Part shown: in pieces, positions 33,599-51,510 of the stretch | How positions within the stretch are numbered: the stretch's first letter is position 1 | How the letters are laid out: each line of letters begins with the position of its first letter | The notes under the pieces: generated by a model | Database searches by the model: none | Told to the model about the DNA's origin: nothing | Seen by the model: only the letters and a program-made list of their open reading frames with translations | Program-made: the position numbers and the translations under genes | Source: Calothrix sp. NIES-4105 | GTDB taxonomy: Bacteria > Cyanobacteriota > Cyanobacteriia > Cyanobacteriales > Nostocaceae | Reading direction: 5' to 3' | Assembly (NCBI RefSeq): GCF_002368415.1 | Contig: NZ_AP018290.1 | Coordinates: 3,299,614 to 3,363,613 of the forward strand | Length of the DNA stretch: 64,000 nt

Positions 33599-33849
33599 TA
33601 CTTTATCTAATCTTTACATTTTACGTAATTTATAAGATTTATGTATATTTGTTAACAAATGTTATTTTGCACACTTGTAATACCATATAGGCGTAGTTAG
33701 ACTTTAAAAGTTCTCAGATTCCCAGATTTGCGACTTCTTTAAGAAGTTGGGAATCTTAAGGAAATCTTTCCGGATATCAGTAAAAATCAGTGAAGAGCTT
33801 ATACGATAAAAAATTAATTAAGTAAATTTACCAGGTGGATAAAAACGTT

Positions 33850-34164
33850 ATGATTTTAAAAGAACTAGACCAAAAAATGTTAGAGTCCTCAGTTATAGTC
33901 GCGTCAAGCGAACAAATTTCTTCTGACCTAGGTGAGGAAGCAGTAATCTTAAACCTCAAGTCTGGAGTTTACCACGGTTTAAATGAAGTAGGCGCCAGTA
34001 TCTGGAAGCTGATCCAAGAACCATTAACAATTAAAGAAATTGAACACAAACTTTTGGAAGAATACAACGTTGAACCCGAACAGTGCCAAAGTGACTTGAT
34101 AGCACTACTCTCCGACCTTTTAGCAGCAGAACTAATTGTGATTAACAATGAGACAACTGCGTAA
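33850..34164 (+). CDS. PqqD-like RiPP recognition element protein (lasso B1), set 1
   Basis: A 104-aa winged-helix RRE protein that would bind the precursor leader and present it to the protease. The PqqD-like pattern is visible: EEAVILNLKSGVYHGLNEVG, IWKLIQEP, then two helices to the C-terminus. The ATG at 33850 matches the start of the paralogue at 42787 (also 104 aa), so the GTG at 33835 is not used. The last 17 bases overlap the start of a truncated B2 gene, the same overlap as in set 2. Confidence 0.9.
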   Translation: MILKELDQKMLESSVIVASSEQISSDLGEEAVILNLKSGVYHGLNEVGASIWKLIQEPLTIKEIEHKLLEEYNVEPEQCQSDLIALLSDLLAAELIVINNETTA

Positions 34165-34216
34165 TTTTTTGAACGGTTTGTTGCTGTCAATATTGATTCT
34201 AAGATATTTTTTTTAA
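34148..34216 (+). pseudogene. 5' stub of a lasso B2 protease gene
   Basis: Starts MRQLRNFLN, matching the B2 start MKRLRNFLK at 34937, and overlaps the B1 stop exactly as in set 2. After nine codons homology is lost and a stop follows at codon 23. The intact B2 starts 790 bases further on, after a decayed B1 copy. Confidence 0.8.
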
Positions 34217-34813
34217 TTGGAACATTCTTACCAATTAATTTAATCAGAGCGAAATCCTTGTAGAAATATTATATGTAGAGACTAACATGTTAGTCTCTAC
34301 ATTCATTTATAGAGAATCCACTGTATTGTTAAGAATCTAAACATTGCAAAGTAGTATAAAAAGTTTTATTTTTTTAGTAGGCTTCATATAATTTTTACAC
34401 TTACCGTATTATTAGTAATGTTATGTATTTTTTGTGACAAGTTATTTGGATTGCAGTTGCTTAGTTATTTAAGCACTGTTACACTGAATCGAGTTTAAAG
34501 CTAAGAAAACGAACAAATAGAAATCGTTATCTTACAAAAAGGAAGCATCGTAGTTCAAGCAAAAATTAAACTGTCATTCTGAAGGCGCCATAAAGCTCCG
34601 CTTTACTCCAATGCACCTCATACAGACGGTTCCTATAAAAGGAAAGCTAGTCTCACTCTAAGTAAAATTACTGGTAAAGATTCGGCTGAAGAAGTTTTAG
34701 ATATCGTGATGGAATTGATAAATAAATTTTAGGATATTAAACAAATAATTCCGGATACCAGTAAAACTTCTAGTATAATTTATACAGATAATAGTAAGTA
34801 AATTTACTAAATG
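34217..34813. other. decayed spacer between two B1/B2 modules
   Basis: AT-rich, contains the duplicated non-coding block 34374-34600 and a short open stretch at 34640-34731 (KASLTLSKITGKDS, then EEVLDIVMELINKF) ending in TAG, which looks like the tail of an unidentified protein. No complete gene. Confidence 0.45.
34374..34600. repeat. non-coding block duplicated upstream of set 2
   Basis: Resembles 42276-42520: both contain CTTCATATAATTTTTACACTT, a CAGTTGCTTA(G/A) stretch, CGAACAA(A/G)T..AAATCGTTATCTT, GGGAAGCATCGTA-like bases and the CATTCTGAA(G/A)GCG.CATAAAGC segment. Shows that the duplicated unit included DNA upstream of B1. Confidence 0.7.
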
Positions 34814-34953
34814 TAAGAAACTATTGAACACAAGCTTTAACTTTTGGAGGAATACGAGGTTGAACTAAAACAGCGTCAAAGCTATTTATAGCACTACTAT
34901 CTGACCTTTTAGCAGTTTCCCTAATTGTGATTAAGAATGAAACGACTGCGTAA
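34814..34953 (+). pseudogene. 3' remnant of a second B1 (RRE) gene
   Basis: Matches the last third of the B1 genes at DNA level (ETIEHK, LLEEYEVE, then ALL.DLLA and ending in ACTGCGTAA) but has several frame breaks and stops. It lies immediately before, and overlaps, the intact B2 gene exactly where a B1 gene should end. Confidence 0.8.
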
Positions 34954-35383
34954 TTTTTTGAAACGGAGCAACCGATCTAAAATTCTGTTATTAACCGCAT
35001 TGATTTTACTAACAAGTATTCGATTCGGTTTGTTGCTACTACCATTTCGTAACTTGTTAAAGCTGATAACACTTATTAGCGAAGGGTTATTACACAAAAT
35101 TGCTGTAAACAAAGTTTCTCTCGGTCAGATTGTTTGGGCAGTAGACGTTGTTACTCGTTATATGCCTGGTGGCGCCAAATGCCTTGCGCGCGCTTTAACA
35201 ACCCAAGTATTGATGAACTGGTGCGGATATAAACCTGAACTCCGTATTGGTGTATCTAAAGGTGAAACAGGAACCTTTGAAGCACATGCTTGGATTGAAT
35301 ATCAAGGACGAGTGGTAATAGGTTATCTTCAAGACCTTCCACGCTTTGTTCCTTTTCCATCTCTCGAAGGAGTCAATATATGA
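34937..35383 (+). CDS. lasso-peptide B2 protein (transglutaminase-like leader peptidase), set 1
   Basis: A 148-aa protein of the McjB C-terminal/transglutaminase-like family that removes the leader of RiPP precursors. Active-site residues are C82 in GGAKCLARALT and H117 in FEAHAWIEYQG. The N-terminal 50 residues are basic, then hydrophobic, typical of stand-alone B2. The stop overlaps the cyclase start by four bases (ATGA). Its original upstream partner B1 is decayed; the functional B1 is probably the gene at 33850. Confidence 0.92.
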   Translation: MKRLRNFLKRSNRSKILLLTALILLTSIRFGLLLLPFRNLLKLITLISEGLLHKIAVNKVSLGQIVWAVDVVTRYMPGGAKCLARALTTQVLMNWCGYKPELRIGVSKGETGTFEAHAWIEYQGRVVIGYLQDLPRFVPFPSLEGVNI

Positions 35384-37404
35384 GCGGCATTATGGGGATT
35401 TACTACCTTGATGGTAGCCCAGTAAAGCGGGAAAACTTAGTGAAGATGGTCGATATTTTGGCACATCGCGGACCTGATGGCGCCGATACTTGGGTAGAGG
35501 GTGCAGTTGGGTTTGGGCATCGGATGCTATGGACAACACCAGAATCTTTGATAGAAAAGTTACCTTTAGCCAATCAAATTGGCATCGTAATTACTTCTGA
35601 TGCTCGCATAGATAACCGTCATGAACTTATAAGTGTGTTACAATTTAATGATTGTCCACCTGATAAAATTACGGATAGCCAGTTAATATTGGCTGCCTAT
35701 GAAAAGTGGGGAGAGTCTTGTCCAGAGCATCTATTGGGTGACTTTGCTTTTGCAATTTGGGATAAACAAAAGCAGATACTATTCTGTGCTAGGGACCACA
35801 TGGGCATCAAACCCTTTTACTATTACTACCAAGCAGGTGAAATTTTTGCTTTTGGCTCTGAAATTAAAGCTTTATTGTGTTTGCAGGAGGTACCACGCCA
35901 ACTAAATGAGGTCAAGGTAGGCGACTATCTGGCAGCAAACTTGCAAGATAAATCCAACACCTTTTACCAAGGTATCTTTCGCCTTCCTCCGGCAAGTAGC
36001 TTAATGGTGAATGCCAAAGGTATACAAATACAGTCTTACTGGAAACTTGACCCCAAGCGGGAACTACGGCTAAATTCTGATGAAGAGTATGCCGAAGCGT
36101 TACGGGAAATCTTTGCGGAAGCTGTACGATGTAGGTTGCGTAGCGCTTTTACCCTTGGTTCTCATCTTAGTGGTGGGTTGGACTCTTCTTCTATTACTTG
36201 CATGGCACGACAGTTGCTGATACAAGAAGGAAAAAATCGCTCATTGCACACCTTCTCAAATATCTTTGATGCTGTTCCCGAAAGTGACGAGCGCTCTTTT
36301 ATTGAGGTTGTTCTTGCCCAAGGTGACATGATTCCTCACTATGTCCATGCTGACGAAATGGGTCCTTTGTCAAACTTAGAGGAAATCTTCCGTTATCAGG
36401 ATGAAGTCATTTCCGTACCTAACCATTTCTTTGCGTGGAAAATGAACGATGCTGTTAACAAAGCAGGTATTCGGGTTGTTTTGGATGGCTTTGACGGCGA
36501 TAACACCATATCTCATGGGAATGATTATTTTGCTGAATTGGCAAATAAAGGAGAGTGGGCAACCTTTGCTGTTGAAACTGAGGCTATAAAGGAACTTATT
36601 GGTGCTTCACCTATTAGTATCTTGCGCTATTATGGTTTAAGAAGCCTAGAGCAACTCGCGCGCCAACGGAAATGGGTTGCTTTTTTTAGAGAAACCAATG
36701 AAATATTGCGGTACTTTAATGTTTCTCGGCGCCAGATTTTTCTGCACCACGGCATAAAACCTTTGCTTCCTAAGTTTGTGCTACAGGTTTTGCGGTTTCT
36801 ACGTGGACATCATCAACTTGAGAGTCGCGGACAGGCGCTCGTTAATCCTAAGTTTGCGAAGCGCATCGGCTTACAAAAGCGTGTCGAAACTTTCAAGAAT
36901 CACTCAAGTCAACCGATCACAGAAAGAGAAGGTCACTGGCAAGGTTTGACTTCTGGCATTTTAACCCAAGCGCTAGAAATATCCGATCAGTATGCAGCAG
37001 TGTTTGGCTTGGAAGTTCGTCACCCCTTCATGGATAAACGCTTGCTAGAGTTTTGTCTATCCCTACCTGCTGAACAAAAGTTACACAAAGGATGGTCGCG
37101 TCTAGTAATGCGCCGTGCGATGAAGAATATCTTGCCTGAGAAGGTGCAGTGGCGCCGTGACAAAGCAGATATGTCTCCTAGTTGCCATTACAGTCTCTTG
37201 ACATTAGATCGACAAATTCTCGATCAGGTGATGCTCAACGATTTGGAGAGTATTGAAACTTACGCAGATACAAAATTTGTGCGTACAGCTTATGACCGAT
37301 TGATATCAAACAGCGAAGTTTACTCTCAGCAAGATTTAATATCAGCTTGGATGGGAGCAATGTTAGCACTTTCTTTGCGCTATACCAAATTATGTAGACC
37401 GTAA
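35380..37404 (+). CDS. asparagine-synthetase-like lasso cyclase (C protein), set 1
   Basis: A 674-aa AsnB-like protein that in lasso systems activates a side-chain carboxylate as AMP ester and closes the macrolactam. The ATP-binding loop SGGLDSSSITCMAR is at about 262-275, and FDGDNTISHG and WSRLVMRRAM follow. The N-terminal glutaminase domain keeps its fold motifs (LAHRGPDGAD, GFGHRMLWTT) but has Ser in place of the catalytic Cys2 (MSGIMGIYY), as expected when no glutamine is used. Translationally coupled to B2. Confidence 0.92.
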   Translation: MSGIMGIYYLDGSPVKRENLVKMVDILAHRGPDGADTWVEGAVGFGHRMLWTTPESLIEKLPLANQIGIVITSDARIDNRHELISVLQFNDCPPDKITDSQLILAAYEKWGESCPEHLLGDFAFAIWDKQKQILFCARDHMGIKPFYYYYQAGEIFAFGSEIKALLCLQEVPRQLNEVKVGDYLAANLQDKSNTFYQGIFRLPPASSLMVNAKGIQIQSYWKLDPKRELRLNSDEEYAEALREIFAEAVRCRLRSAFTLGSHLSGGLDSSSITCMARQLLIQEGKNRSLHTFSNIFDAVPESDERSFIEVVLAQGDMIPHYVHADEMGPLSNLEEIFRYQDEVISVPNHFFAWKMNDAVNKAGIRVVLDGFDGDNTISHGNDYFAELANKGEWATFAVETEAIKELIGASPISILRYYGLRSLEQLARQRKWVAFFRETNEILRYFNVSRRQIFLHHGIKPLLPKFVLQVLRFLRGHHQLESRGQALVNPKFAKRIGLQKRVETFKNHSSQPITEREGHWQGLTSGILTQALEISDQYAAVFGLEVRHPFMDKRLLEFCLSLPAEQKLHKGWSRLVMRRAMKNILPEKVQWRRDKADMSPSCHYSLLTLDRQILDQVMLNDLESIETYADTKFVRTAYDRLISNSEVYSQQDLISAWMGAMLALSLRYTKLCRP

Positions 37405-37428
37405 TTATTTATTAAGTATTAAATTTAG

Positions 37429-37456
37429 TTGACATCTACCGTAATATATGTAAGAC
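37429..37456 (+). promoter_or_regulatory. candidate promoter of precursor gene A1
   Basis: TTGACA at 37429-37434, 16-base spacer, TAAGAC at 37451-37456 (weak -10). It lies 68 bases before the precursor start, after the cyclase stop, so the precursor can be expressed separately and more strongly than the enzymes. An AAGGAG ribosome-binding site is at 37511-37516. Confidence 0.5.
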
Positions 37457-37523
37457 TAGAGATGCCGTTACTTTTGCGTAAAAGCAAGGTTACGAGTTCC
37501 AACAAACAACAAGGAGTTTCAAA

Positions 37524-37745
37524 ATGAAGAAGAGCTACGAAGCACCAAGACTGAACAGCCACGGTCGCGTTAACAAGCTCACTGCAGCCAGTGGACAACT
37601 AGGATTCAATGACTTTTTCTTTGCTGAAAAGGGTGAACCTACCCAAATGAATGGCTCATTAAATGTGTGTGTTACTAAACCCGGAACTGGGGTCTGCGTG
37701 AATCCAAAATCAACCGATCCCAAGTATACACCTACCAAAAAATAG
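37524..37745 (+). CDS. lasso-type RiPP precursor A1 with an unusually long core
   Basis: A 73-aa precursor. The leader has Y5-x2-P8-x-L10-x3-G14-x5-T20, the pattern read by RRE proteins, with T20 as the usual -2 Thr. A core starting at A22 (ASGQLGFND) would place D30 at position 9, fitting an Ala1-Asp9 ring. The remaining tail is about 43 residues, rich in Pro, Lys and Thr, with two cysteines (C49, C58) and no C-terminal Ser. Lasso cores usually have 13-25 residues, so the mature form is uncertain. Strong AAGGAG site; own promoter and terminator. Confidence 0.85.
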   Translation: MKKSYEAPRLNSHGRVNKLTAASGQLGFNDFFFAEKGEPTQMNGSLNVCVTKPGTGVCVNPKSTDPKYTPTKK

Positions 37746-37854
37746 AGAGCAAGGAATGCTGTAGTAGCCGCTACAGCCTGCTGAATAAACAGCTTTTAAA
37801 GTCCTTGCAACTCTTAATCTACCTTCGCTGTAGAAGCTAGAGCTTGCTAACGCA

Positions 37855-37883
37855 AAGGGCTACGGGCATCCGTAGCCCTTTTT
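37855..37883 (+). terminator. intrinsic terminator after precursor A1
   Basis: Perfect 11-bp stem AAGGGCTACGG / CCGTAGCCCTT with GCAT loop, then TTT. It lies 110 bases after the precursor stop and before the kinase gene, so it should cap the abundant precursor mRNA and let only some readthrough into the tailoring genes. Confidence 0.85.
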
Positions 37884-37962
37884 CAACCTTCTTCAAAAAG
37901 AAGCAAAACAAGTTAGCACGATCATAACAACCAACTTTAATTTTGTTCAAGGATACTCAAAA

Positions 37963-38895
37963 GTGTTTGCTTATACTGCTTATAATCTCCACATTCACTC
38001 TGAGTTCCGTTTTCCGGAACTCAGCGAGAGCGAAGTTGCACAACAGCCAGATGTGCTGATTTCGCTGCGTTCCATTAGCCAGTTAGAAATTGAAACAGCT
38101 GATGGCGCCAACAAGTTAGTGGGATTTTTAGAGTTAGAAAATATCACAGCGGGCAGGTTTTTGGTTGAGTCGGGACGCAAAATTGTCGTCGAACCAAACC
38201 CAGGAATTGATCAAGATTTGCTTCGTCCTTGTATTCTCGGACCAATTTTTGCCGTGCTGCTGCGACAGCGTTCCTATCTCGTCCTTCATGCTAGTAGCGT
38301 TGCCATCAATAATAAAGCAGTAGCGTTTTTGGGACATTCCGGATGGGGTAAGTCAACCTTAGCAAATGCTTTTTATAACCAAGGCTATAGTTTACTTACA
38401 GATGATGTGATGGCGATAAAAGTTGAGAGTAACCCCCCGATTACTTTTCCCAGCTTTCCCCAAGTCAAATTATTACCAGATGCTGCGGCTTCTTTAGGAT
38501 ACGACTTTGAGAAATTAACATCAATTCATGTTAGGGTAGCAAAACGGAATAATCGTCTTGACCAAAGGTTTTCGCAAATTGCTTTACCAGTTAAGCGGAT
38601 TTATGTATTGGAAAATGTGGCAGCTACTTGTAACGAAATAGAGTCTCTGTCACCTCAGAATGCTCTTATGGAACTAGTTCGCCACTCCCGCGCGACCGAT
38701 TTACTAACTACACCAGAGTTTGTTAGCTCTCATCTGCGTCAGTGCGCTAATTTAGTAAAGAATATATCTATATGTCGTTTAAAAAGAAAGCCTTCTTTAG
38801 ATGCATTACCGGAGTTAGTGAAGCTAATAGAAGAAGATATTGCTCAAACAATATTTGATAATTATGATAATATCCAGATATTCGCATCTGCCTAA
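37963..38895 (+). CDS. HPr-kinase-like protein (lasso tailoring kinase), set 1
   Basis: A 310-aa protein related to the HPr kinase/phosphorylase C domain. The P-loop GHSGWGKST is at about 124-132, after LVLHASSVAINNKAV; LLTDDVMAI is the probable catalytic/Mg site and PQVKLLPDA a conserved segment. Homologues in lasso clusters phosphorylate a C-terminal Ser of the precursor. Precursor A1 ends in Lys-Lys, so its target is not obvious. GTG start with an AAGGA site. Followed by the exporter. Confidence 0.82.
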   Translation: MFAYTAYNLHIHSEFRFPELSESEVAQQPDVLISLRSISQLEIETADGANKLVGFLELENITAGRFLVESGRKIVVEPNPGIDQDLLRPCILGPIFAVLLRQRSYLVLHASSVAINNKAVAFLGHSGWGKSTLANAFYNQGYSLLTDDVMAIKVESNPPITFPSFPQVKLLPDAAASLGYDFEKLTSIHVRVAKRNNRLDQRFSQIALPVKRIYVLENVAATCNEIESLSPQNALMELVRHSRATDLLTTPEFVSSHLRQCANLVKNISICRLKRKPSLDALPELVKLIEEDIAQTIFDNYDNIQIFASA

Positions 38896-38935
38896 GAGTA
38901 TATTTTAAAAAGTTAAAAGAAAGGGATTAAAAATT

Positions 38936-40759
38936 TTGAATAAAATATTAGGCAGAGCAATCGCTCGAATTTCTTATTTACCAAAAACACTGGATTTAGT
39001 TTGGACTGCATCTAAAGGATGGACGATCGTCTGGGCTATATTACTAGTTATCCAGGGACTCACGCCAGTTGCTATGGTCTACCTGACTCGCGCGGCAGTT
39101 GATGGTTTAGTAGCAGTTATGGGAGCTGGGGTAACTTGGCAAAGCGCTCAACCGATTATAATTCCAGCAGCAGCTATGGCTTGCGTTTTATTGGTGGGAG
39201 GAAGTTTGCAAACCGTGATGGAGTGGGTACGGACGGCTCAATCTGAATTTGTCCACGACCATATTACCACCTTGATTCATCAAAAGTCTGTAGCGGTAGA
39301 TTATGCCTTTTATGAATCATCAGAGTATTATGATCGCCTGAACCGAGCGCGTAGCGATGCCAGTGGTCAATCACTTTCTCTGCTAGAAAATTTGGGTAAT
39401 GGACTGCAAAACAGCATTACCTTACTATCAATGGCAGCAATATTACTTCCTTATGGTGCTTGGCTAGCAGTTGTAATATTAATCAGTGCGCTGCCATCTT
39501 TATATATAATGCTAAATTTGAATCGCTACTATCACCGTTGGTGGGAACAAAGCACTACAGAACGGCGCCGTGTAGAATACTATGATGTACTGCTGACTAA
39601 CAGCAACACTGCTGCGGAATTACGACTATTTAACTTAGGTCAAGAGTTCCAGTCAGCTTACTTAAAATCACGCCATCGATTGAGAGCGGAATATCTACAA
39701 ATAGCCAAAATCCAAGGTTTAGGGCGCCTTAGTGCGATGATTGTAGGACTTTTAGTTTTTATCGCTCCCTTAAGTTGGATAGTGTGGCGAATTTTGCAAG
39801 GAAAGATGACCCTTGGTGAACTTGCCCTGTTTTTCCAGGCATTTCAACAAAGTCGGAGTGTGATGAGTTCTTTGTTGGGTAATCTAGGACAAATTTATAG
39901 AAGTAGTTTATTTGTAAGTAACTTATTTGAATTTTTGGAATTAAAACCGCAAATTGTCAGTCCACCCCAACCCCAACCTATTCCCAAGCAACTGAAACAG
40001 GGAATTAGCTTTCAACAAGTTAGTTTTGAGTATCCGGGTAGTGATCGCCCTGTCTTAGAAAATTTTAATTTGACAATTCCAGCGGGCAAAATAGTCGCAA
40101 TTGTCGGGGATAACGGCGCCGGAAAGAGTACTTTAATCAAGTTACTTTGTCGTTTCTATGACCCAGAGTCTGGTTGCATTAAACTAGACGGAATTGATAT
40201 TCGCGATTTATCTGTCACCGAATACCAGCGTTTAATTACAGTTTTGTTCCAGTTTCCTGTTTCTTACTACGTCACCGCTGCCGAAAACATTGCTTTTGGT
40301 GATTGGTCAGCAACTCCAAGCTTAGATGAAATTGAGTTGGCGGCTAAAGATGCTGGTATTGATGAGAAAATTACTAGCTTACCTCAAGGTTACAACTCAA
40401 TATTAGGCAAATTATTTCCTACAGGTACAGAACTCAGCGGCGGACAATGGCAGCGCCTTGCTTTAGCAAGAGCATTTTTGCGACGTGCCGAAATTATTAT
40501 CCTTGATGAACCAACCAGTGCAATGGATCCTTGGGCAGAGTTTGATTGGTTAGAGCGATTCCGCACTATGGCAAATGGACGGACTGCTGTTGTAATTACT
40601 CACCGTTTTACCTTAGCAATGCGCGCGGATATTATTCATGTTATGCGTGCCGGTAAGATTGTGGAATCAGGAAGCCATGATGAATTGCTGGCTCAAAATG
40701 GTTTTTATGCTCAGTCTTGGAAAGAGCAAATGTCCGTTAATAATAATGTTTCTGTTTAA
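38936..40759 (+). CDS. ABC exporter (lasso D protein), set 1
   Basis: A 607-aa half-transporter: transmembrane domain in the first 320 residues and one nucleotide-binding domain. Walker A GDNGAGKST is at about 392-400, signature LSGGQWQRLALARA, Walker B IIILDEPTSAMD, H-loop VITHRF. There is no C39 peptidase domain, consistent with leader removal by B2. The start is TTG with an AAGGGA site. Exports the mature peptide and may give immunity. Only two bases separate it from the next gene. Confidence 0.92.
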   Translation: MNKILGRAIARISYLPKTLDLVWTASKGWTIVWAILLVIQGLTPVAMVYLTRAAVDGLVAVMGAGVTWQSAQPIIIPAAAMACVLLVGGSLQTVMEWVRTAQSEFVHDHITTLIHQKSVAVDYAFYESSEYYDRLNRARSDASGQSLSLLENLGNGLQNSITLLSMAAILLPYGAWLAVVILISALPSLYIMLNLNRYYHRWWEQSTTERRRVEYYDVLLTNSNTAAELRLFNLGQEFQSAYLKSRHRLRAEYLQIAKIQGLGRLSAMIVGLLVFIAPLSWIVWRILQGKMTLGELALFFQAFQQSRSVMSSLLGNLGQIYRSSLFVSNLFEFLELKPQIVSPPQPQPIPKQLKQGISFQQVSFEYPGSDRPVLENFNLTIPAGKIVAIVGDNGAGKSTLIKLLCRFYDPESGCIKLDGIDIRDLSVTEYQRLITVLFQFPVSYYVTAAENIAFGDWSATPSLDEIELAAKDAGIDEKITSLPQGYNSILGKLFPTGTELSGGQWQRLALARAFLRRAEIIILDEPTSAMDPWAEFDWLERFRTMANGRTAVVITHRFTLAMRADIIHVMRAGKIVESGSHDELLAQNGFYAQSWKEQMSVNNNVSV

Positions 40760-40761
40760 CT

Positions 40762-41982
40762 ATGCAAGAAATTCTCTGCGAAGAGGCACAACGGCCGCCA
40801 TCCGTATCATTACCTAATATATACGGCATTCCTATCGACTCAGAAGCTTTGGCTAAGTACAGCCATGAACTTCAGCTAGAACCCAGCGAAGCACTTCTAG
40901 AGATGGCTCAAGCTATTGCCTATAGTCCCATTTGGTCAGAAATGCCAGGAAATATATTGATTGTTCGTTCCACTCCTCAACCAGCACTTTCTGTGTTGGG
41001 TTACTTTGATGAGGCTGGTCAAGTGCGAATTGCTACAGAACTTCGGGATTTAAATCTGAACGTAACTCGTCTGCGCTACGTCAGTTATCGTCAAGCGGAA
41101 GCAGATTGTCAGCTTCTGGCAAAACAATTAGTTGACCGCTTTGGTGATGAAATAAAACAGTTTCACTTCACTGGGATTCCCCGTGGAGGGCTGATAGTAT
41201 TGGGAATGCTAGCTTACACTTTGGGCTTAACTCCCGACCAATTAGAACCACCGCCATCGCCCGATGTGCCTTGGGTAGTGGTGGATGACTGTGTTTTTAC
41301 TGGTTCTCGACTAAGCCACTTTTTGCAATCCCATTCCCACGAGACAGTAATATTTGCCCATCTTTACTCTCATCCCGATTTGCGAAAAGCGATTGCAGCT
41401 CGTGAACCGCGCGTTATTGCCTGTCTCAGCGCTCAAGATATTCATGACTACGCACCAGAAAACCTCGGTGAGAATTACGCAAACTGGCAAGCACAGTGCC
41501 TCACACAACTAGATGGAATTCGTTACTGGGTAGGGAAGACAGACAATATCTGCTTTAGTTGGAATGAACCAGATCGCTTTTTTTGGAACCCTGTGACTAA
41601 AAGCATGGAAGGTTGTTGGCTGTTGATTCCTCCAAAAATATGCTTGAAAAATCGACTCAAAGCTGCTACTCAAGCTCCAATAATTAAGACTCAGCCAGAG
41701 AGTAAAGGACTCATTCAACCAGGTCAGCAAGTCATCTTTGGAGAGTATGAGGGACAGATTGTGATTGGTGATTTGGCAACTCAAGAAAGTTTTTGCTTGA
41801 CTGGTGTAGCAGCCGATATTTGGCAAGCGATTGTTGAATACGGCGATGTGGAACAAGTTATTACGTCACTATTAAGCAGCTATAACGTTGAGGAAGACAC
41901 ACTTCGGTGTGATGTGGAGACTTTTATAGATGAGTTGTACGCCAGCGGTTTGTTAATTAAATGCAATCCCCGCAGTTGTTGA
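40762..41982 (+). CDS. phosphoribosyltransferase-like protein fused to a C-terminal RRE (PqqD) domain
   Basis: A 406-aa fusion. Residues about 85-255 carry a type I PRTase pattern: FTGIPRGGLIVLG, then the PRPP loop WVVVDDCVFTGSRL at about 170-183. Residues about 315-400 form a PqqD-like winged helix (VIFGEYEGQIVIGDLATQES, IWQAIVEYGDVEQV). The middle is not recognised. A leader-binding domain fused to a PRPP-binding enzyme suggests direct action on the precursor, or use as a scaffold. Translationally coupled to the exporter. The 3' end overlaps an ABC remnant. Confidence 0.8.
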   Translation: MQEILCEEAQRPPSVSLPNIYGIPIDSEALAKYSHELQLEPSEALLEMAQAIAYSPIWSEMPGNILIVRSTPQPALSVLGYFDEAGQVRIATELRDLNLNVTRLRYVSYRQAEADCQLLAKQLVDRFGDEIKQFHFTGIPRGGLIVLGMLAYTLGLTPDQLEPPPSPDVPWVVVDDCVFTGSRLSHFLQSHSHETVIFAHLYSHPDLRKAIAAREPRVIACLSAQDIHDYAPENLGENYANWQAQCLTQLDGIRYWVGKTDNICFSWNEPDRFFWNPVTKSMEGCWLLIPPKICLKNRLKAATQAPIIKTQPESKGLIQPGQQVIFGEYEGQIVIGDLATQESFCLTGVAADIWQAIVEYGDVEQVITSLLSSYNVEEDTLRCDVETFIDELYASGLLIKCNPRSC

Positions 41983-42100
41983 TAGTAACGGCGCCGACAA
42001 AAGTACGCTAATCAAGTTAATTTATTGTTGTTACGACCCAGAGTTCGGAAATATTGAACTAGATAATATAGATATACGCCAACTACACCACCTTCTATAA
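41972..42100 (+). pseudogene. Walker-A fragment of an ABC exporter gene
   Basis: Reads VVDSNGADKSTLIKLIYCCY, then DPEFGNIELDNIDIRQL and a stop, matching IVGDNGAGKSTLIKLLCRFY of the intact exporters. The Walker A glycine before the lysine is changed (GADKST), and both sides are missing. It overlaps the last 11 bases of the PRTase-RRE gene. Complementary in content to the 3' fragment at 33246. Confidence 0.85.
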
Positions 42101-42121
42101 ATAAATTGTGCGAAACCAATG

Positions 42122-42147
42122 TCCTGACGTTACATGTAACGTCAGGA
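42122..42147. repeat. perfect 26-bp palindrome TCCTGACGTTACATGTAACGTCAGGA
   Basis: Thirteen-base arms without a loop. Immediately after the ABC remnant and before set 2. Followed by TAATTGTTT, so a weak terminator or a protein-binding operator are both possible. Confidence 0.65.
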
Positions 42148-42786
42148 TAATTGTTTATATACTAACGTCTCTACAATCAAATGTAATTTATTTAACAAGA
42201 GTAGATTGGGTGGAGGCTAAAGGAACCCAACATCAACCAAAAGTAGTATTCTTTAATCAAAAAAAAGTTTCATTTTTAGCAGTACTTCATATAATTTTTA
42301 CACTTTCAGCATTTTCACTGGTATTTTGTATGTTTTCTGAAAAGTCTTAATTATTACAGTTGCTTAACTACTTAAGTATTGTTACACTTAAATAGTTCAA
42401 GGTTAAAGAAAAACGAACAAGTCAAAATCGTTATCTTGCCAAAGGGAAGCATCGTATCCAAGCAAAAACAAAACCGCCATTCTGAAAGCGGCATAAAGCG
42501 GAGCTTTATGAGCAGGCTGAATTTGAAAGATTTGGAGATATTAACGAAGGAAAAAGAAAGAAGGAAGTCTTCTTTTTTATGACCCAACGGATTCAAGTCC
42601 AAGAGCGAAATCCTGGATTGATGGTTGGTAGAGTTAGCGGGTTTAAATAGCCCTGCAATTGTCTTTGTTTAAACTTATATCTAACTACTTACTTCATTGC
42701 TTAACGAACAAATCCGGAGCCAAGTAGCTTTTTTATAACATTTGATACAAATATCTAAGTAAAATTATTAAAAAAAGAGAAGTATT
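42148..42786. other. spacer upstream of set 2
   Basis: About 640 bases, AT-rich, including the duplicated block 42276-42520 and a frame-like stretch MSRLNLKDLEILTKEKERR at about 42508. No recognised gene. Promoter of set 2 expected near the 3' end. Confidence 0.45.
42276..42520. repeat. non-coding block, paralogue of 34374-34600
   Basis: Same order of shared stretches as listed for 34374-34600, here followed by GGAGCTTTATGAGCAGG. Marks the duplication unit upstream of set 2. Confidence 0.7.
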
Positions 42787-43101
42787 ATGAATTTAAAACA
42801 ACTAGAACAACAAATGTTAGAGTCCTCAGTTGTAGTTGCTTCAAGCGAGCAAATTTCTTCTGACCTAGGTGAAGAAGCAGTAATTTTAAACCTTAAATCT
42901 GGAGTCTACCACGGGTTAAATGAAGTAGGCGCCACTATTTGGAAGCTGGTTCAAGAACCAAGGACAATTAAAGAAATTGAACATAAACTTTTAGAAGAAT
43001 ACGACGTTGAACCCGAACAGTGCCAAAGCGATGTGATAGCACTACTCTCCGACCTTTTAGCAGCAGAACTGATTGTAATTAAGAATGAAACGACTGCGTA
43101 A
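42787..43101 (+). CDS. PqqD-like RRE protein (lasso B1), set 2
   Basis: A 104-aa paralogue of the 33850 gene, nearly identical through SGVYHGLNEVGA and the C-terminal helices; differences cluster in the first ten residues and around IWKLVQEPRT. ATG start with GAGAAG seven bases upstream. Overlaps B2 by 17 bases. Because both B1 proteins are so alike, either might read both leaders. Confidence 0.92.
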   Translation: MNLKQLEQQMLESSVVVASSEQISSDLGEEAVILNLKSGVYHGLNEVGATIWKLVQEPRTIKEIEHKLLEEYDVEPEQCQSDVIALLSDLLAAELIVIKNETTA

Positions 43102-43531
43102 TTTTTTAAGGATGAGCAACCGAGCGCGCGTTTTGTTGTTAACAGCATTAATATTATTAACATGTGTTCGATTGGGTTTGTTGCTGCTTCCGTTTCGTCA
43201 CTTGTTAAAGCTAATAACACGTATTAGCGAAGGGTTCTTGCACGATATAGCTGTAAACAAATTTTCTCTCGGTCAGATTGTTTGGGCAGTAAACGTTGTT
43301 ACTCGTTATATGCCAGGTGGCGCCAAATGCCTTGCGCGCGCGTTAACAACCCAAGTATTAATGAACTGGTGCGGATATAAACCCGAACTCCGTATCGGTG
43401 TATCTAAAGGTGAAACAGGAACCTTTGAAGCACATGCTTGGGTTGAATATCAAGGACAAGTGGTAATAGGTTATCTTCAAGACCTTCCACGCTTTGTTCC
43501 TTTACCATCTCTCGAAGGAGTTAATATATGA
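43085..43531 (+). CDS. lasso-peptide B2 leader peptidase, set 2
   Basis: A 148-aa paralogue of 34937-35383 with the same Cys (GGAKCLARALT) and His (FEAHAWVEYQG). Start inside B1, stop overlapping the cyclase start by four bases (ATGA): a fully coupled B1-B2-C operon, which shows the ancestral arrangement lost in set 1. Confidence 0.93.
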   Translation: MKRLRNFLRMSNRARVLLLTALILLTCVRLGLLLLPFRHLLKLITRISEGFLHDIAVNKFSLGQIVWAVNVVTRYMPGGAKCLARALTTQVLMNWCGYKPELRIGVSKGETGTFEAHAWVEYQGQVVIGYLQDLPRFVPLPSLEGVNI

Positions 43532-45462
43532 GTGGCATTATGGGGATTTACCAACTTGATGGTAGCCCAGTAGAACGGGAAAACTTAGTGAAGATGTCCG
43601 ATATTTTGGCACACCGAGGACCTGATGGCGCCGACATTTGGGTTGAAGGTGCAGTTGGATTTGGACATCGGATGCTGTGGACAACTCCTGAATCTTTACT
43701 AGAAAAGTTACCTTTGGTTAATATTACCAACGATATTGGCATTACAACTGATTGTCGCATTGACAATAGGGAAGAACTTATTTGTGTATTCCAGTTTGAG
43801 AACTGTCCACCTGAGAAAATTACAGATAGCCAGTTAATATTAGCAGCCTATGAGAAATGGGGTGAACAATGTCCGGAGCATCTGTTGGGGGACTTTGCCT
43901 TTGCGATTTGGGATAAGCGCGAGCAAAAGTTGTTTTGTGCCCGCGATCATTTTGGGGTCAAGCCATTCTACTATTACCATAAGAACGATTTTTTCACTTT
44001 TGCAACTGAAATCAAAGCACTCTTGTGTGTGCCAGAAGTGCCGCGCGTACTCAATCGAGTTAGAATTGGTGACTATTTGGCAGACATGTATGAAGACAAT
44101 GCCATTACCTTCTACCAAGATATTTTTCGACTTCCCCCTGCTCACAGCATGGTAGTTAATCAATCTGGAGTCCAAATTAAATGCTATTGGTCTTTAGACC
44201 GCGACCGAGAATTGATTTTGGACTCAGACGAAGAATATGCAGCGAAATTTCGTGAAATTTTTGCTGAAGCTGTGCGTTGTCGTTTACGTAGTGCCTTCCC
44301 AATTGGCTCCATGCTCAGTGGTGGCTTGGATTCATCTTCCATCACCTGCATGGCAAGAAAACTTTTGACCGAAAATAACGAACAACCTTTGCATACCTAT
44401 TCAGCTGTCTTTGATGAGGTGCCAGAATCTGATGAAAGTCCTTACATTAAAGCAGTTCTAGCACAAGGAGGAACTGTTGGGCACTATTTACATGCGGATA
44501 AAGTTAGCCCTTTAACTGACTTAGAGCAAGTACATTGGCATCTTGATGAACCCGTGTTTGCTGGCAATTTGTATATTAATTGGAACATATATGATATTGC
44601 CAAAAATCAGAACATCCGTATAATGCTTGACGGATTTGATGGTGATAATACAGTTTCACATGGTATTGGTTATTTATCGGAATTAGCACTTGCGGGACGA
44701 TGGTTAACTCTATGCCGAGAGATTCAAGGATTTGCTAAGAACTTCAAATTTTCTTTCTGGCAGATATATTGGCAATATGTCTATAAGTATGGTTTCAATC
44801 GATTACGCAAACACAAACCTTTCAACCTCATCTACAGATTATTGCAAGCTGGGTCTAAAAGATTATGGCGAACTAATGTTCAAGAACCGTCTCAATATGT
44901 AATATTTAATCCCGCTTTCTTTGAAACAATTGGCTTAGAGCAGCGTCGTCAAAACTTACAGCAAAAGCGTAATTTACCACAGCTAAATCAAAGACATCAT
45001 CATTATCAATGCCTAACTCTTGGGGTTTTACCATACACACTGGAAATTCTTGACCGTGCATCTGCTGGATTTGGTATTGAATTGCGCTATCCGTTTTGGG
45101 ATAAACGACTGGTGGAATTTTGTTTATCTATACCAGCGAATCAGAAAATGTCTCAAGGATGGACTCGTGCAGTTTTGCGACGCGCGATGGCAGGCCTTCT
45201 ACCCCAAGAAGTGCAATGGCGAGGTGGTAAAGGAAATCTATCCTTTGGTTTTGATAATGGACTGTTGAAGTTTGAACGAGAACGCTTGGAGCTATTGTTA
45301 ACAAAAGAGCTAAATTTGATTGAAGAGTACATTAACAAGAAAGCTGTGGCATCAGCTTGTCACAAATTTATCTCCCAGCAGTCTCATGATGATGAGACAA
45401 GTATGACTTGGAAGGCTCTAGACCTAGCACTTTGGTTAAATTACACAGGCTTAAATTCTTAA
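43528..45462 (+). CDS. asparagine-synthetase-like lasso cyclase (C protein), set 2
   Basis: A 644-aa paralogue of the set 1 cyclase. SGGLDSSSITCMAR at about 265-278, FDGDNTVSHG, and Ser instead of Cys at position 2 (MSGIMGIYQ). The N-terminal 240 residues are much more similar to set 1 than the middle (about 330-480), as expected if the middle reads the different core peptides. From about 43.63 kb onward the DNA lacks the otherwise frequent GGCGCC for 4 kb. Confidence 0.92.
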   Translation: MSGIMGIYQLDGSPVERENLVKMSDILAHRGPDGADIWVEGAVGFGHRMLWTTPESLLEKLPLVNITNDIGITTDCRIDNREELICVFQFENCPPEKITDSQLILAAYEKWGEQCPEHLLGDFAFAIWDKREQKLFCARDHFGVKPFYYYHKNDFFTFATEIKALLCVPEVPRVLNRVRIGDYLADMYEDNAITFYQDIFRLPPAHSMVVNQSGVQIKCYWSLDRDRELILDSDEEYAAKFREIFAEAVRCRLRSAFPIGSMLSGGLDSSSITCMARKLLTENNEQPLHTYSAVFDEVPESDESPYIKAVLAQGGTVGHYLHADKVSPLTDLEQVHWHLDEPVFAGNLYINWNIYDIAKNQNIRIMLDGFDGDNTVSHGIGYLSELALAGRWLTLCREIQGFAKNFKFSFWQIYWQYVYKYGFNRLRKHKPFNLIYRLLQAGSKRLWRTNVQEPSQYVIFNPAFFETIGLEQRRQNLQQKRNLPQLNQRHHHYQCLTLGVLPYTLEILDRASAGFGIELRYPFWDKRLVEFCLSIPANQKMSQGWTRAVLRRAMAGLLPQEVQWRGGKGNLSFGFDNGLLKFERERLELLLTKELNLIEEYINKKAVASACHKFISQQSHDDETSMTWKALDLALWLNYTGLNS

Positions 45463-45643
45463 TTTTACGCTCAATACGAGCAGCTAACGGGTGCAATATT
45501 CAAAAATAAATTTTTAGATGGTTGTCCTGTTGGAGAGTTTTAAAAAGAACATCCAACAGCACAGCTAGCCTAAAGATTCGCTCGTTCAAGAGTGTAACTT
45601 TTGGAAAGCTGTTTATCTCAGTCAAAAACATAAGGAAAAAACA

Positions 45644-45796
45644 ATGAATACCAACAAAAAAGCTTATGCTGCACCTTCCCTTACTGTTCACGGTTCTGTA
45701 GGAACCATTACCCAACAAGGCGGACCACCAATACGTGTGGACGTTCCATTCGGTACACCTTTAGGAGACAACGGTATCACTGACGTTACCTCATAA
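45644..45796 (+). CDS. lasso-type RiPP precursor A2, copy 1
   Basis: A 50-aa precursor, too short for many gene callers. Leader pattern Y8-x2-P11-x-L13-x3-G17-x5-T23 equals that of A1. Asp33 is ten residues after T23. With Thr at -2 the core is QGGPPIRVD followed by VPFGTPLGDNGITDVTS; alternatively G26-D33 forms an eight-residue ring. The core ends in Ser, the expected target of the HPr-like kinase. AAGGA binding site seven bases before ATG. Confidence 0.88.
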   Translation: MNTNKKAYAAPSLTVHGSVGTITQQGGPPIRVDVPFGTPLGDNGITDVTS

Positions 45797-45845
45797 GAGG
45801 ATGTTGAATACTGAGTAACTCCAAAGGATTACCTTTATAACGCAA

Positions 45846-45880
45846 AGTAGAGGCTTAATGTTAGGCTATAAGCCTCTACT
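45846..45880 (+). terminator. hairpin closing unit 1 of the precursor array
   Basis: Perfect 12-bp stem AGTAGAGGCTTA / TAAGCCTCTACT with an 11-base loop, 50 bases after the precursor stop. No T-run, so it may stabilise or process mRNA rather than terminate. Confidence 0.55.
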
Positions 45881-45973
45881 ATCCAACAGCACAGCTAGCC
45901 TAAAGATTCGCTCTTTCAAGAGTGTAGCTTTTAGAAAGCTGTTTATCTCAGTCAAAAACACAAGCAAAAAACA

Positions 45974-46126
45974 ATGAACACCAGCAAAAAAGCTTACACT
46001 GCACCTTCCCTTACTGTTCACGGTTCTGTAGGAACCATTACCCAACAAGGCGGACCACCAATACGTGTGGACGTTCCATTCGGTACACCTTTAGGAGACA
46101 ACGGTATCACTGACGTTACCTCATAA
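45974..46126 (+). CDS. lasso-type RiPP precursor A2, copy 2
   Basis: A 50-aa precursor with the same core as copy 1. The leader differs only at residue 4 (Ser for Asn) and residue 9 (Thr for Ala). The ribosome-binding region is changed from AAGGAA to AAGCAA, so translation may be weaker. The unit ends in the same hairpin. Confidence 0.87.
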   Translation: MNTSKKAYTAPSLTVHGSVGTITQQGGPPIRVDVPFGTPLGDNGITDVTS

Positions 46127-46175
46127 GAGGATGTTGAATACTGAGTAACTCCAAAGGATTACCTTTATAACGCAA

Positions 46176-46210
46176 AGTAGAGGCTTAATGTTAGGCTATA
46201 AGCCTCTACT
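46176..46210 (+). terminator. hairpin closing unit 2 of the precursor array
   Basis: Same 12-bp stem as 45846-45880. A decayed version (GTAGAGTCTTA ... TAAGTTTTTAC) follows at about 46425-46457 in unit 3. Confidence 0.55.
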
Positions 46211-46380
46211 ATCCAACAGCACAGCTAACCTAAAAATTCGCTCGCACATTCGCTTACTGTCCAAGGTTTTGTAGGAATCATTACCCTACAAATTAAACTG
46301 GCAGTACATGTAAATGCTCCAATTGATACACTTCTATAGCATAGCAATATCATTGACGTTACCACATGCTAAGAGGATAG
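46211..46380 (+). pseudogene. decayed third precursor copy
   Basis: Aligns with units 1 and 2: TCGCTTACTGTCCAAGG (leader), GTAGGAATCATTACCC (GTITQ region), then a diverged core and ATTGACGTTACC near the end. The start region with the ATG is deleted and a TAG interrupts the core. Confidence 0.8.
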
Positions 46381-46513
46381 TCAAATACTTGAGTAACTCC
46401 AAGGGATTATTTTAACAACGTGAAGTAGAGTCTTAATCCTAAGCTATAAGTTTTTACTTAACAAAATCTTGTTAAAAGTCAATCTATTCAATAGAATATT
46501 GTATAAAATATAT

Positions 46514-47728
46514 ATGGATAATAATTATAATTTTACACATCTTATTTATCCCTATAATCCAACAGATTTTTTTCAATATAATTGGGAAAAAAAATATATT
46601 TATATATCGAGAAAAGACGATTTTTACTATAAAAATGTACTGAATGAGGACGATATTGATTTATTCTTACAAGATAAAAAAAGGCAAGCAGAAAACGATA
46701 ATTTTCTTTTAGTCAAGGATGGTCAAAAGTTAGATTATAACTATTGGGCAAAAAAGCGGGATAAAACCAATCAGTATTTAATAGATACTAACAAAATATT
46801 TACTCTATTAAATCAGGGCGTTACCTTAGTTATCAATAGTGGACATAAATCTATTCCAAAATTAATAAATTTCTGCAATTCTCTGGAAAAAGAGTTACGA
46901 TTTAGAGTTAGAACAAATATTTATATTACACCGCCAACAGCACAGGGTTTAGCTCCACATTATGATGAACATGATGTTTGCATTCTACAAATTACAGGTA
47001 CTAAAATTTGGCATTTATATCACTCCCCGATAAAACTACCCTGCAACGAAAATCATAAAATTAAAGATTTCCCGGCTTTGGGAGAACCTGATTTTACGGT
47101 TGAATTACAACCAGGAGATTTATTATATATTCCTAGAGGACTTATTCATCAAGCTTTTACCACAGATAAAACCTCTATCCATATTGCATTAGGTTTATAC
47201 CCTACTTATGGGTTTGAACTGTTGCAAGAACTTGTGGAACTTGCTCAAGATAATCCTACCTTTAGAAAAGCAATACCTCATGGATTTACTAATGATGAGG
47301 ATAAAAAGCTATTTAATGAGGAATTTCGCCAACTTTGTCAGGAGTTAGTTGATAATTTGGATGTAGATGCTCTTTTGGCAAGAAAAGATAAACAGTTTAT
47401 AGAAGCTAAGGGTACAGAAGATGGCAATCGTTTTCAAGATTGGTTAAATATTAATCAAATAAATTTGAATACTGTATTATCACGCCGACAAACTGTTGTT
47501 TTTTCTACAGATAAAGATGCCGAAAATATTTATATAAATTTCTATAACAAAAGATTAGTTTTTCCAAAATTTATGGCGATTTCATTAACTACTATAATAT
47601 CTAGTGATTCTTTTGTGGTTAAAGATATTGGTGGTTTGATAAATGATAAAGGTAAACTCGATTTGGCGACTAAATTTGTACAAGAAGGATTCTTAAAAAT
47701 CGAAAATTTAAATGCGGATGTTCCTTAA
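46514..47728 (+). CDS. JmjC/cupin-fold Fe(II)/2-oxoglutarate hydroxylase-like protein
   Basis: A 404-aa protein of the cupin_4 (RoxA/YcfD/MINA-like) family. The iron triad is suggested by H and D in APHYDEHDVC (about 147-153) and a distal His in IPRGLIHQAF (about 208), with QPGDLLYIPRG before it. Family members hydroxylate ribosomal or other peptides. Within this operon it probably hydroxylates the A2 core. The frame is open back to a TTG at 46469; I chose the ATG at 46514. Very AT-rich. Confidence 0.83.
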   Translation: MDNNYNFTHLIYPYNPTDFFQYNWEKKYIYISRKDDFYYKNVLNEDDIDLFLQDKKRQAENDNFLLVKDGQKLDYNYWAKKRDKTNQYLIDTNKIFTLLNQGVTLVINSGHKSIPKLINFCNSLEKELRFRVRTNIYITPPTAQGLAPHYDEHDVCILQITGTKIWHLYHSPIKLPCNENHKIKDFPALGEPDFTVELQPGDLLYIPRGLIHQAFTTDKTSIHIALGLYPTYGFELLQELVELAQDNPTFRKAIPHGFTNDEDKKLFNEEFRQLCQELVDNLDVDALLARKDKQFIEAKGTEDGNRFQDWLNINQINLNTVLSRRQTVVFSTDKDAENIYINFYNKRLVFPKFMAISLTTIISSDSFVVKDIGGLINDKGKLDLATKFVQEGFLKIENLNADVP

Positions 47729-47753
47729 TATTAAATAAAGGCAGATATCAACT

Positions 47754-48740
47754 ATGAAGCTAGCTAATAAACTCAATGCTGAAGCGGCGCCTCTGCCGGG
47801 TACAGAATCACATATAACTTCTGACGCAAAAGGAGATATATATTTTTATACCGCATATGGATTAAGAATTAACTCAACACTACCTATTCCGGAATTACTA
47901 AGCAGTAATCATACAGAAGCAGATGTCGTCATTCGGTTTGGTAAATTGGACAAAAGTCCATTAAAAGATAAGTCTATAATACATTCTTATAAATTAACTG
48001 CTGATGGAATGTATTTATTTCTATTAGGAGCGGGGACGTTTCTCATTCGTAATGGCAACGAAATCATCATTGAACCTGAGCCAGATGCTTCGGCAAGCAA
48101 AATACGTCTTTTGCTTTTAGGTGCAGCAATTGGGACGTTACTCCATCAGCGAGGATACCTGACTCTTCATGCAAGTGCAGTTGCAATGAATAATGGTGCT
48201 GTCGTTTTTATCGGCGATAAAGGGTGGGGTAAGTCTACAATAGCAGCAAATCTTCACGCGCGAGGACACAATCTGATTGCTGATGATGTGGTTGCTGTTG
48301 ACTTACATAGTGAGCAACAGGCTATTGTTCTACCTGCTTTTCCCCAACTAAAACTATGGCCTGATGCAGTAACATCCTTGGGAAGTAACCCCGAAGAATT
48401 GCCGCAGCTAGTTTCCAATATTGAAAAAAGAGATTTTCGACCCAATTACGGTTTTATGCTCACAAATATTCCTCTCAAGCAAATTTACGTGCTTGGTAAA
48501 GGTGAGGCTGTAGAAATAAAACCTCTCAATTCTCAAGAAGTTTTAACTTACCTAATTCGTAATTCTTACATTACTAGATTTGGCGAAGAGTTGATCCAAT
48601 CTGACAGAGCATCCTATTTTCGAAAGTTAACTCAACTTGCTAAAAAAGTTTCTATCTCTTATCTGCTACGACCAAAAGATTTGTCCTTGCTCCCTGAAAC
48701 TGTAAGACTTATAGAAGAAAATCAAAATGATTATAACTAA
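47754..48740 (+). CDS. HPr-kinase-like protein (lasso tailoring kinase), set 2
   Basis: A 328-aa paralogue of the set 1 kinase with an N-terminal extension of about 28 residues. P-loop GDKGWGKST at about 153-161, LIADDVVAVD, PAFPQLKLWPDAV. Here the cognate precursor ends in Ser, so C-terminal Ser phosphorylation as in paeninodin-type systems is a direct prediction. The end overlaps the frame of the next gene. Confidence 0.85.
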   Translation: MKLANKLNAEAAPLPGTESHITSDAKGDIYFYTAYGLRINSTLPIPELLSSNHTEADVVIRFGKLDKSPLKDKSIIHSYKLTADGMYLFLLGAGTFLIRNGNEIIIEPEPDASASKIRLLLLGAAIGTLLHQRGYLTLHASAVAMNNGAVVFIGDKGWGKSTIAANLHARGHNLIADDVVAVDLHSEQQAIVLPAFPQLKLWPDAVTSLGSNPEELPQLVSNIEKRDFRPNYGFMLTNIPLKQIYVLGKGEAVEIKPLNSQEVLTYLIRNSYITRFGEELIQSDRASYFRKLTQLAKKVSISYLLRPKDLSLLPETVRLIEENQNDYN

Positions 48741-48756
48741 CAGAAATGAGGTAAAA

Positions 48757-49581: not shown

Positions 49582-49627
49582 AAGTTTTGAAATCATTATA
49601 AATAACTAGTAAATATAAATAGTTCGT

Positions 49628-51457: not shown

Positions 51458-51510
51458 TTAAATCAATTTCTGATTTTAGACTGGATCAAATATATTACCA
51501 AAAATAACAA

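Follow-up and report, generated by a model that had tools for sequence, protein, structure and literature searches.

What does a phosphoribosyltransferase (PRT) domain do in a pathway for lasso peptides, and why is it joined there to an RRE domain? The question is raised by a gene at 40762..41982 (+ strand) of the window, i.e., the whole stretch of 64,000 nucleotides of Calothrix sp. NIES-4105 DNA analysed here. This PRT-RRE gene closes a complete lasso operon, in which all genes lie on the + strand: the discrete RRE protein B1 (33835..34164; PqqD E 7e-20), the leader peptidase B2 (34937..35383; NF033537, 108 bits), the lasso macrolactam cyclase C (35380..37404; NF033535, 1046 bits), the lasso precursor A (37524..37745; NF033528, 37.1 bits vs. 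33), an HprK-like kinase (37963..38895) and the ABC exporter D (38936..40759; profile match), which ends two bases upstream of the fusion gene. The precursor has the leader motif YEAP and an internal GSLNVC, and its core probably begins ASGQLGFND. The kinase scores below the NCBIfam cut-offs and is identified by its His, P-loop Lys and Asp-Asp residues, all of them present, and by its place in trees. A RiPP operon had been proposed here in a first-pass annotation made from the letters of the sequence, and the NCBIfam and Pfam profiles that find A, B1, B2, C and D upstream of the gene agree with it. After the fusion gene there is a terminator-like hairpin (42120..42149, + strand), a consensus match only; the region 37300-43000 holds eight such sites compared to 4.5 in shuffled sequences. 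A scan of window positions 30000-54000 against Rfam gave no match at the gathering score.

The reading frame runs from ATG to TGA, with two bases between it and the exporter stop codon (ending at 40759), and encodes a protein of 406 aa. A PRPP loop and a C-terminal PqqD-like domain had been noticed earlier in this protein, and both Pfam and the frame bear the observation out: Pribosyltran (PF00156) is matched with 27.4 bits (cut-off 26.3; E 2.4e-6; best stretch residues 172-215) and PqqD (PF05402) with 42.4 bits (cut-off 23.4; E 8.7e-11; residues 337-398). The window protein was aligned with those of 30 of the 33 homologous loci found by a contig scan (alignment A2, 31 rows), and the same 31 sequences were the input for an AF2 model (mean pLDDT 92.8, pTM 0.88), in which the PRT fold and the winged helix are both predicted with high confidence. 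The model, the alignment and Foldseek comparisons also reveal elements beyond the PRPP loop, namely a pyrophosphate loop, a hood-like motif and an extra N-terminal domain. The latter is an alpha/beta domain (residues 17-104; 40810..41073; + strand) modelled with a pLDDT of 90.5; it is absent or short in 5 of the 31 aligned rows, and no PDB fold matches it significantly (best E 0.083). Then follow, all on the + strand, the pyrophosphate-loop motif IPRGG (residues 139-143; 41176..41190), the PRPP-loop motif VVVDDCVFTGSR (residues 172-183; 41275..41310), the hood-like motif FSWNEPD (residues 265-271; 41554..41574) and the PqqD-like RRE domain (residues 318-400; 41713..41961), which is delineated by Pfam, AF2, Foldseek and its leader-pocket residues. 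Residues invariant in all 31 rows include P140, R141, G142 and G143 of the first loop, D175, D176, G181 and R183 of the second, F265, W267 and P270 of the hood-like motif, and W286. The idea of a chance motif was rejected, as the loop residues are invariant across A2.

How widespread is the protein? In its own genome (12.0 Mb) there is one match to it. Among 386 genomes of the phylum, the own genome included, 25 have a match, which is near full-length only in the window's genome and in G296 and elsewhere confined to residues 272-406. A contig scan built on an alignment of two sequences reached further, although it saw only DNA encoding IVLGMLAY or IFA[HP]LYSH and would miss relatives without these words, whether inside or outside RiPP loci. 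It matched 86 stretches, and 33 homologous loci (L029-L061) were confirmed among them. These belong to Cyanobacteriota, Halomonadaceae, Gemmatimonadota, Chloroflexota, Verrucomicrobiota, Deinococcota and others; the taxa are cyanobacteria, Halomonas, Billgrantia, a Chromatiaceae MAG, a Rhodobacteraceae MAG, Gemmatimonadetes, Chloroflexi, Nitrospirae, Opitutales/Opitutia, Trueperaceae, Acidobacteria, Spirochaetaceae, an unclassified bacterium and a 5.2 kb archaeal MAG contig, single labels being unsure as many of the loci are on MAG contigs. The closest homologues of the window protein are in cyanobacteria. In the genus-level group of L055 the protein occurs in 13 of 90 genomes (one copy broken and one split) and lasso B2 in 21 of 90; nine genomes have both, not always at a common locus (Fisher p 1.7e-4). 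A plasmid search with the fusion protein gave one record, matched in the PqqD part only. The PRT-RRE homologue of Halomonas socia (L061, 9959-11145) is split over two frames, so that it is either a pseudogene or a sequencing error, and two precursors and a kinase remain beside it.

For the gene neighborhoods, 40 PRT loci were compared: L029-L061, six loci of the Halomonas group (L095-L100) and the window, with the broken copy of G428 left out (L002, L028 and L035 are the same record). Profile searches placed the cyclase at 33 of the 40. The first-pass annotation had proposed to look for the same fusion near lasso genes, and since the cyclase is present at 26 of the 33 scan loci, the homologues are not found only outside RiPP loci. 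B2 is at 22 of the 40 loci and occurs somewhere in 23 of the 27 genomes searched, and NTP_transf_5 is often in the same locus as the PRT. We take as the main clue the link of the PRT to the HprK-like kinase, on which the first-pass annotation is silent; this kinase is encoded (at least 100 bits) at 31/40 PRT loci and 25/33 scan loci. In 23 of these 31 the two frames are within 250 bases of each other, in five the kinase lies across the exporter and in three it is more distant. Eight of the nine loci without a kinase have a contig end less than 2 kb from the PRT. At the remaining locus, L057, the only trace of a kinase is a stretch of 96 aa resembling one (76 bits) on the opposite strand; the PRT of this locus is without lasso genes in 18.8 kb, and no B2 match is found in the genome. 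The PRT of L049 has no RRE at its end; a kinase gene comes immediately after it, and a discrete B1 is encoded just upstream. At L035 (8968-11146) a kinase-PRT pair occurs with no lasso gene within 14.97 kb, and a lasso locus of that genome (L142), on another contig, has its own kinase and no PRT.

Kinases are also common in lasso loci that have no PRT. As controls served 73 PRT-free lasso loci found by B2, with only part of the B2 places taken, from cyanobacteria (20), the Halomonas group (13), Chloroflexota, the phylum of L047 (15), and Gemmatimonadota, the phylum of L039 (25). A kinase is present in 52 of the 73. Among loci with at least 5 kb of flanking sequence in each direction, counted from B2 in the controls and from the PRT in the PRT loci, it is present in 46 of 58 controls and 19 of 20 PRT loci (p 0.17). 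Presence alone is therefore neither specific nor proof of coupling, and as it did not discriminate, a kinase tree was used instead. This was a quick tree without bootstraps and without a paeninodin kinase, comprising 85 of 92 kinases, 31 of them PRT-linked. Six were excluded for scoring under 220 bits, and L101 because it duplicates L058. The PRT label changes twice on it, compared to 25.4 times on average in shuffles, and none of the 500 shuffles was as low. One set consists of 24 kinases, all PRT-linked (SH-aLRT 88, or 98 when L109 is added), from Gemmatimonadota, Chloroflexota, Nitrospirota, Verrucomicrobiota, Deinococcota, Acidobacteriota, Halomonadaceae, Chromatiaceae and one unclassified bacterium. 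The PRT-free kinases of the Halomonas group, Chloroflexota and Gemmatimonadota fall outside this set, with the exception of L109, a PRT-free Chloroflexota kinase on a long branch adjoining it. Seven cyanobacterial PRT-linked kinases share a set with six PRT-free ones.

In a tree of cyclases (100 rows with at least 300 bits out of 107 matches, without L101) the PRT-linked members are clustered as well, with five changes vs. 30.0 in shuffles, and part of the kinase signal is thus the shared ancestry of the whole cassette. PRT distances follow those of the cyclase with a rank r of 0.74 (27 loci), of B1 with 0.77 (20 loci) and of the kinase with 0.49 (27 loci); when only the 21 non-cyanobacterial loci are taken, the cyclase reaches 0.83 and the kinase 0.84. 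As judged by eye, GGK[ST] forms the end of the P-loop in 17 of the 24 non-cyanobacterial PRT-linked kinases (L038-L061, L095-L100) and in just two of the PRT-free kinases seen (L069 and L109), a possible sequence signature of part of the PRT-linked group.

The peptides encoded at these loci differ as well. From the output of a pattern search, 39 precursors were picked by hand at 31 of the 40 PRT loci, and another 46 at loci that have a kinase and no PRT; a partly masked precursor of L029 was left out, and several control loci yielded none. In the leader pattern the Pro was required, and the Tyr place could be Y, W, F, H or L; by eye the Tyr of YxxP is found in 39/39 PRT-linked precursors. Paeninodin-type kinases act on the C-terminal Ser (PMC9266682, PMC8498205). 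It ends 13 of the 46 control precursors and no PRT-linked one (p 1.5e-4; by locus 12/32 and 0/31), which leaves 33/46 and 39/39, respectively, without it. The paeninodin-type pairing of a kinase with a C-terminal Ser is consequently not what the PRT loci display: the kinase is present and the Ser is found in 0/39. Instead, 28 of the 39 have G[ST][VILA] in the tail compared to seven of the 46 controls (p 1.6e-7; by locus 24/31 vs. 6/32), and the looser G[ST] is in 37/39 vs. 29/46 (p 4.8e-4), p-values that describe a contrast and are not proof, because the motif was defined post hoc, the sequences are related and the core start is misplaced in a few cases. Eleven of the 39 lack G[ST][VILA] under the tail rule, which is approximate given that the core start is wrong for L045, L052, L100 and L124, among a few. 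In the cyanobacterial PRT-linked precursors (window 37524-37745; L030, L033, L034 and L040) two Cys residues follow the G-[ST] motif and possibly form a disulfide. This Cys pair was considered as the reason for the PRT and rejected, as most of the non-cyanobacterial PRT-linked precursors are without it.

Predicted folds, conserved loop residues, a leader pocket, linkage and shared inheritance of the cassette and a distinct class of precursors thus characterize the PRT-RRE loci. Our preferred explanation, held with moderate confidence, is that PRT-RRE is a lasso tailoring enzyme which the RRE guides to the precursor and which, as a partner of the kinase, modifies the peptide tail, possibly by phosphoribosylating a phosphoserine. 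The C-terminal RRE would bind the YxxP leader and thereby bring the tail of the core to the PRT-type active site. The HprK-like kinase of the cassette would phosphorylate the internal Ser/Thr in G-[ST]-[VILA], and the PRT domain would move 5-phosphoribosyl from PRPP onto the Ser/Thr, likeliest onto the phosphate made by the kinase, with release of pyrophosphate. Binding of the leader, the use of PRPP, the atom modified, the order of the steps, and the donor and acceptor are all inferred. Phosphoribosyl on the internal Ser/Thr phosphate would be the chemically simplest joint product of a kinase and a PRT. An HprK-like kinase, LppK, phosphorylates an internal Ser according to PMC13381572, and in PMC10994848 the PRTase Rv3806c moves phosphoribosyl onto decaprenyl phosphate. 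PsmN puts a hexose on the phosphorylated Ser of a lasso peptide, whether directly or not being left open in a review (PMC9266682). The strongest form of the proposal, a relay of kinase and PRT in a widespread class of lasso peptides that yields ribosyl-1-phosphoryl-serine, and hence a gene-encoded peptide phosphoribosylated by a PRT-fold enzyme, is tentative and must be considered rather doubtful.

The kinase and the PRT might also work apart, the phosphoribosyl of PRPP being placed directly on a core side chain or terminus while the kinase acts at another site. The conserved PRT loop residues would suit this, and as kinases are common in PRT-free loci, the kinase may have a task of its own. 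The clustering of the PRT-linked kinases, together with the pair that stands alone at L035, is read by us as support for joint action, and we judge ribosylation independent of the kinase to be unlikely.

Whether the domain transfers anything depends on its active site. The middle domain has the type I PRT fold in the predicted model, its nearest PDB structures being entries of XGPRT (6kqc, 5xtk and 1a95), and the match is a moderate one (E about 1e-5, TM by target approximately 0.5, rmsd 4-9 Å over 126-145 columns). It is another fold than that of Rv3806c. PF00156 is matched by only 8 of the 31 rows at E 0.01, and a profile search of the PDB sequences with the alignment returned PqqD-type chains only and no PRT chain, so the PRT assignment rests on fold, Pfam and motifs. 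The PRPP loop of type I PRTs comprises an acidic pair followed by T/S-G-x-T/S. Here the DD and the T/S-G are kept in 31/31 rows, and the last position is Arg in 31/31: R183 stands in the place of the last Thr of the XGPRT phosphate loop. Position 179 aligns with Gpt D92, which we take to be the Asp that contacts the purine base; all 31 rows have L, F, I or Y there. The stretch between the two loops, where XGPRT has its flexible loop, has lost 17 residues in the window protein compared to Gpt. With the base-contact Asp lost, the loop Thr changed to Arg and the loop stretch shortened, PRPP transfer is not assured; judged from its residues the enzyme may still hold PRPP, and a purine is an unlikely substrate.

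These differences invite a reading in which the fold no longer transfers. It would bind the phosphate or pyrophosphate of the peptide, or a nucleotide, as an RRE-bearing partner of the kinase without PRPP chemistry, presenting the substrate or trimming polyphosphate. The lost Asp, the invariant Arg of the phosphate loop and the shortened loop region all fit such a protein, and so does the adjoining kinase. The acidic pair of PRTases, however, binds the ribose hydroxyls, and its invariance in 31/31 rows would be unexpected if no ribose were bound; altogether, we consider a non-transferring fold quite unlikely.

The C-terminal domain is much closer to known structures. Foldseek finds leader-bound TbiB1 (5v1v) nearest, with E 9e-6, rmsd 1.9 Å over 86 columns and TM by target 0.89; the TM by target is 0.83-0.89 for TbiB1, and the rmsd to TbiB1 and TfuB1 is 1.4-1.9 Å. 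The beta3-alpha3 winged helix of an RRE is present in the AF2 model, and PqqD is matched at E 0.01 by 25 of the 31 rows, four of the others being cut or without the domain. The residues that hold the leader in PbaB1 and LppB are given in PMC13381572, where LppB D70 bonds to the leader Tyr. When these contacts, as given there, are mapped on the window RRE by alignment, with a presumed numbering offset of 18, they meet like residues, namely L346, V349, I353, L370, Y374, V376, F388, L392 and L397. D384 occupies the place of LppB D70; of the 27 rows that have the domain, 23 carry D at this position and four carry E. Leader binding by the RRE is on these grounds probable. The window domain is also acidic, with two K/R and 15 D/E (net charge -13), and over the 27 rows the net charge is from -14 to +1, negative in 26; as a charge count of one domain, this tends to speak against DNA binding.

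The first-pass annotation had offered, as its second possibility, a regulator that senses the leader peptide. Such a protein, sensing either PRPP or the leader and controlling the operon, would be of the PurR or PyrR kind; PRT-fold regulators of this type are known, and regulators too have the winged-helix fold. The RRE, however, is acidic and has leader-pocket residues, and the nearest structures are leader-bound B1 proteins. The gene is co-directional inside biosynthetic operons, its distances follow those of the cyclase and B1 (rank r 0.73-0.77), and in 19 of the 26 non-cyanobacterial precursor-bearing loci the leader motif is on the same strand at most 255 bases from the PRT frame. A regulator is therefore very unlikely. 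Of the earlier interpretation, the domain make-up, the lasso context, the leader pocket and the lack of a description in the open-access literature searched stand; the regulator is disfavored, and PRPP-dependent modification of the core is plausible. A housekeeping gene of purine salvage caught in the operon by chance has XGPRT as the nearest fold in its favor and was rejected with next to no probability left, as the Asp at the D92 place is replaced in 31/31 rows, an RRE is fused and the cyclase adjoins at 33 of the 40 loci.

How, then, does the proposed RRE-guided tailoring enzyme relate to systems already described? With XGPRT (Gpt of E. coli, 1a95, and of Y. pestis, 6kqc) it shares the fold, the RGG of the pyrophosphate loop and the Asp pair and T/S-G of the PRPP loop, at approximately 20% identity in Foldseek alignments. 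It departs in the lost Asp, the Arg and the shortened stretch discussed above, and it adds an N-terminal domain, a helical insert and the fused RRE. The discrete lasso RREs (TbiB1, TfuB1/FusB1 and PbaB1) are alike in fold and in the residues of the YxxP pocket, but the window RRE is fused behind a PRT domain and is additional to a B1. Pathways of the paeninodin and pseudomycoidin type have A, B1, B2, C, D and a kinase in common with the window operon (HprK-like kinase; NTP transferase PsmN), and lack the extra PRT-RRE of the loci described here, where the precursors are without C-terminal Ser; outside cyanobacteria the PRT-linked kinases are also set apart from the PRT-free ones, in a tree that has no paeninodin kinase. 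The linear polyphosphorylated peptides (LppK/LppB/LppN) likewise combine an RRE with an HprK-like kinase acting on an internal Ser, and are defined in PMC13381572 as having no macrolactam cyclase; the term ribosyl has no match in that paper. Rv3806c moves phosphoribosyl from PRPP to a phosphate acceptor, as proposed here, but is membrane-bound and has a lipid acceptor (PMC10994848).

No described RiPP tailoring enzyme of this make-up was known at the first pass, and none was found in the open-access literature searched. The PRT-RRE fusion is in no title or abstract start among the matches listed, in open-access literature with subscription papers mostly outside, and PqqD together with a phosphoribosyltransferase domain gave no match in the open-access literature. 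One of the papers matched by lasso peptide and phosphoribosyltransferase (PMC11705953) concerns the regulatory subunit hisZ of ATP phosphoribosyltransferase. The word phosphoribosyl is absent from the main text of the RRE surveys PMC7470986 and PMC12710340; the latter reports 1,158 Pfam domains among the proteins retrieved, and its supplements may list the PRT domain.

The product of the cassette is probably a lasso peptide to which the PRT-RRE fusion has attached a chemical group not described so far. Nucleotides and similar small molecules are the usual products of type I PRTases, and a conserved leader-guided PRTase, if true, would extend the PRT fold to peptide tailoring. The PRT-RRE and kinase group would in addition be a genetic handle for a class of lasso peptides across phyla, and it makes testable the role of HprK-like kinases at the many lasso loci whose precursors have no C-terminal Ser.

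A second lasso operon, without a PRT, lies in tandem at 42787-52641 of the window. Its genes encode B1, B2, C, two precursors, a JmjC/cupin protein, an HprK-like kinase, a methyltransferase, an ABC exporter and NTP_transf_5, and the precursors, both ending in Ser, are near-identical (DNA repeats 97%). Short remnants of ABC exporters are found upstream of the first operon (33246-33554) and directly after the PRT stop codon (about 41985-42100), and suggest, as far as sequence goes, duplication and decay of an operon. Stretches of 300 bases of B1 and B2 are 90 and 86% identical between the two operons, and the cyclases approximately 64% at the protein level. B1 and B2 overlap in the second operon and are separated in the first by approximately 770 bases (34165-34936), within which 34382-34488 matches 42285-42391 at 76%.
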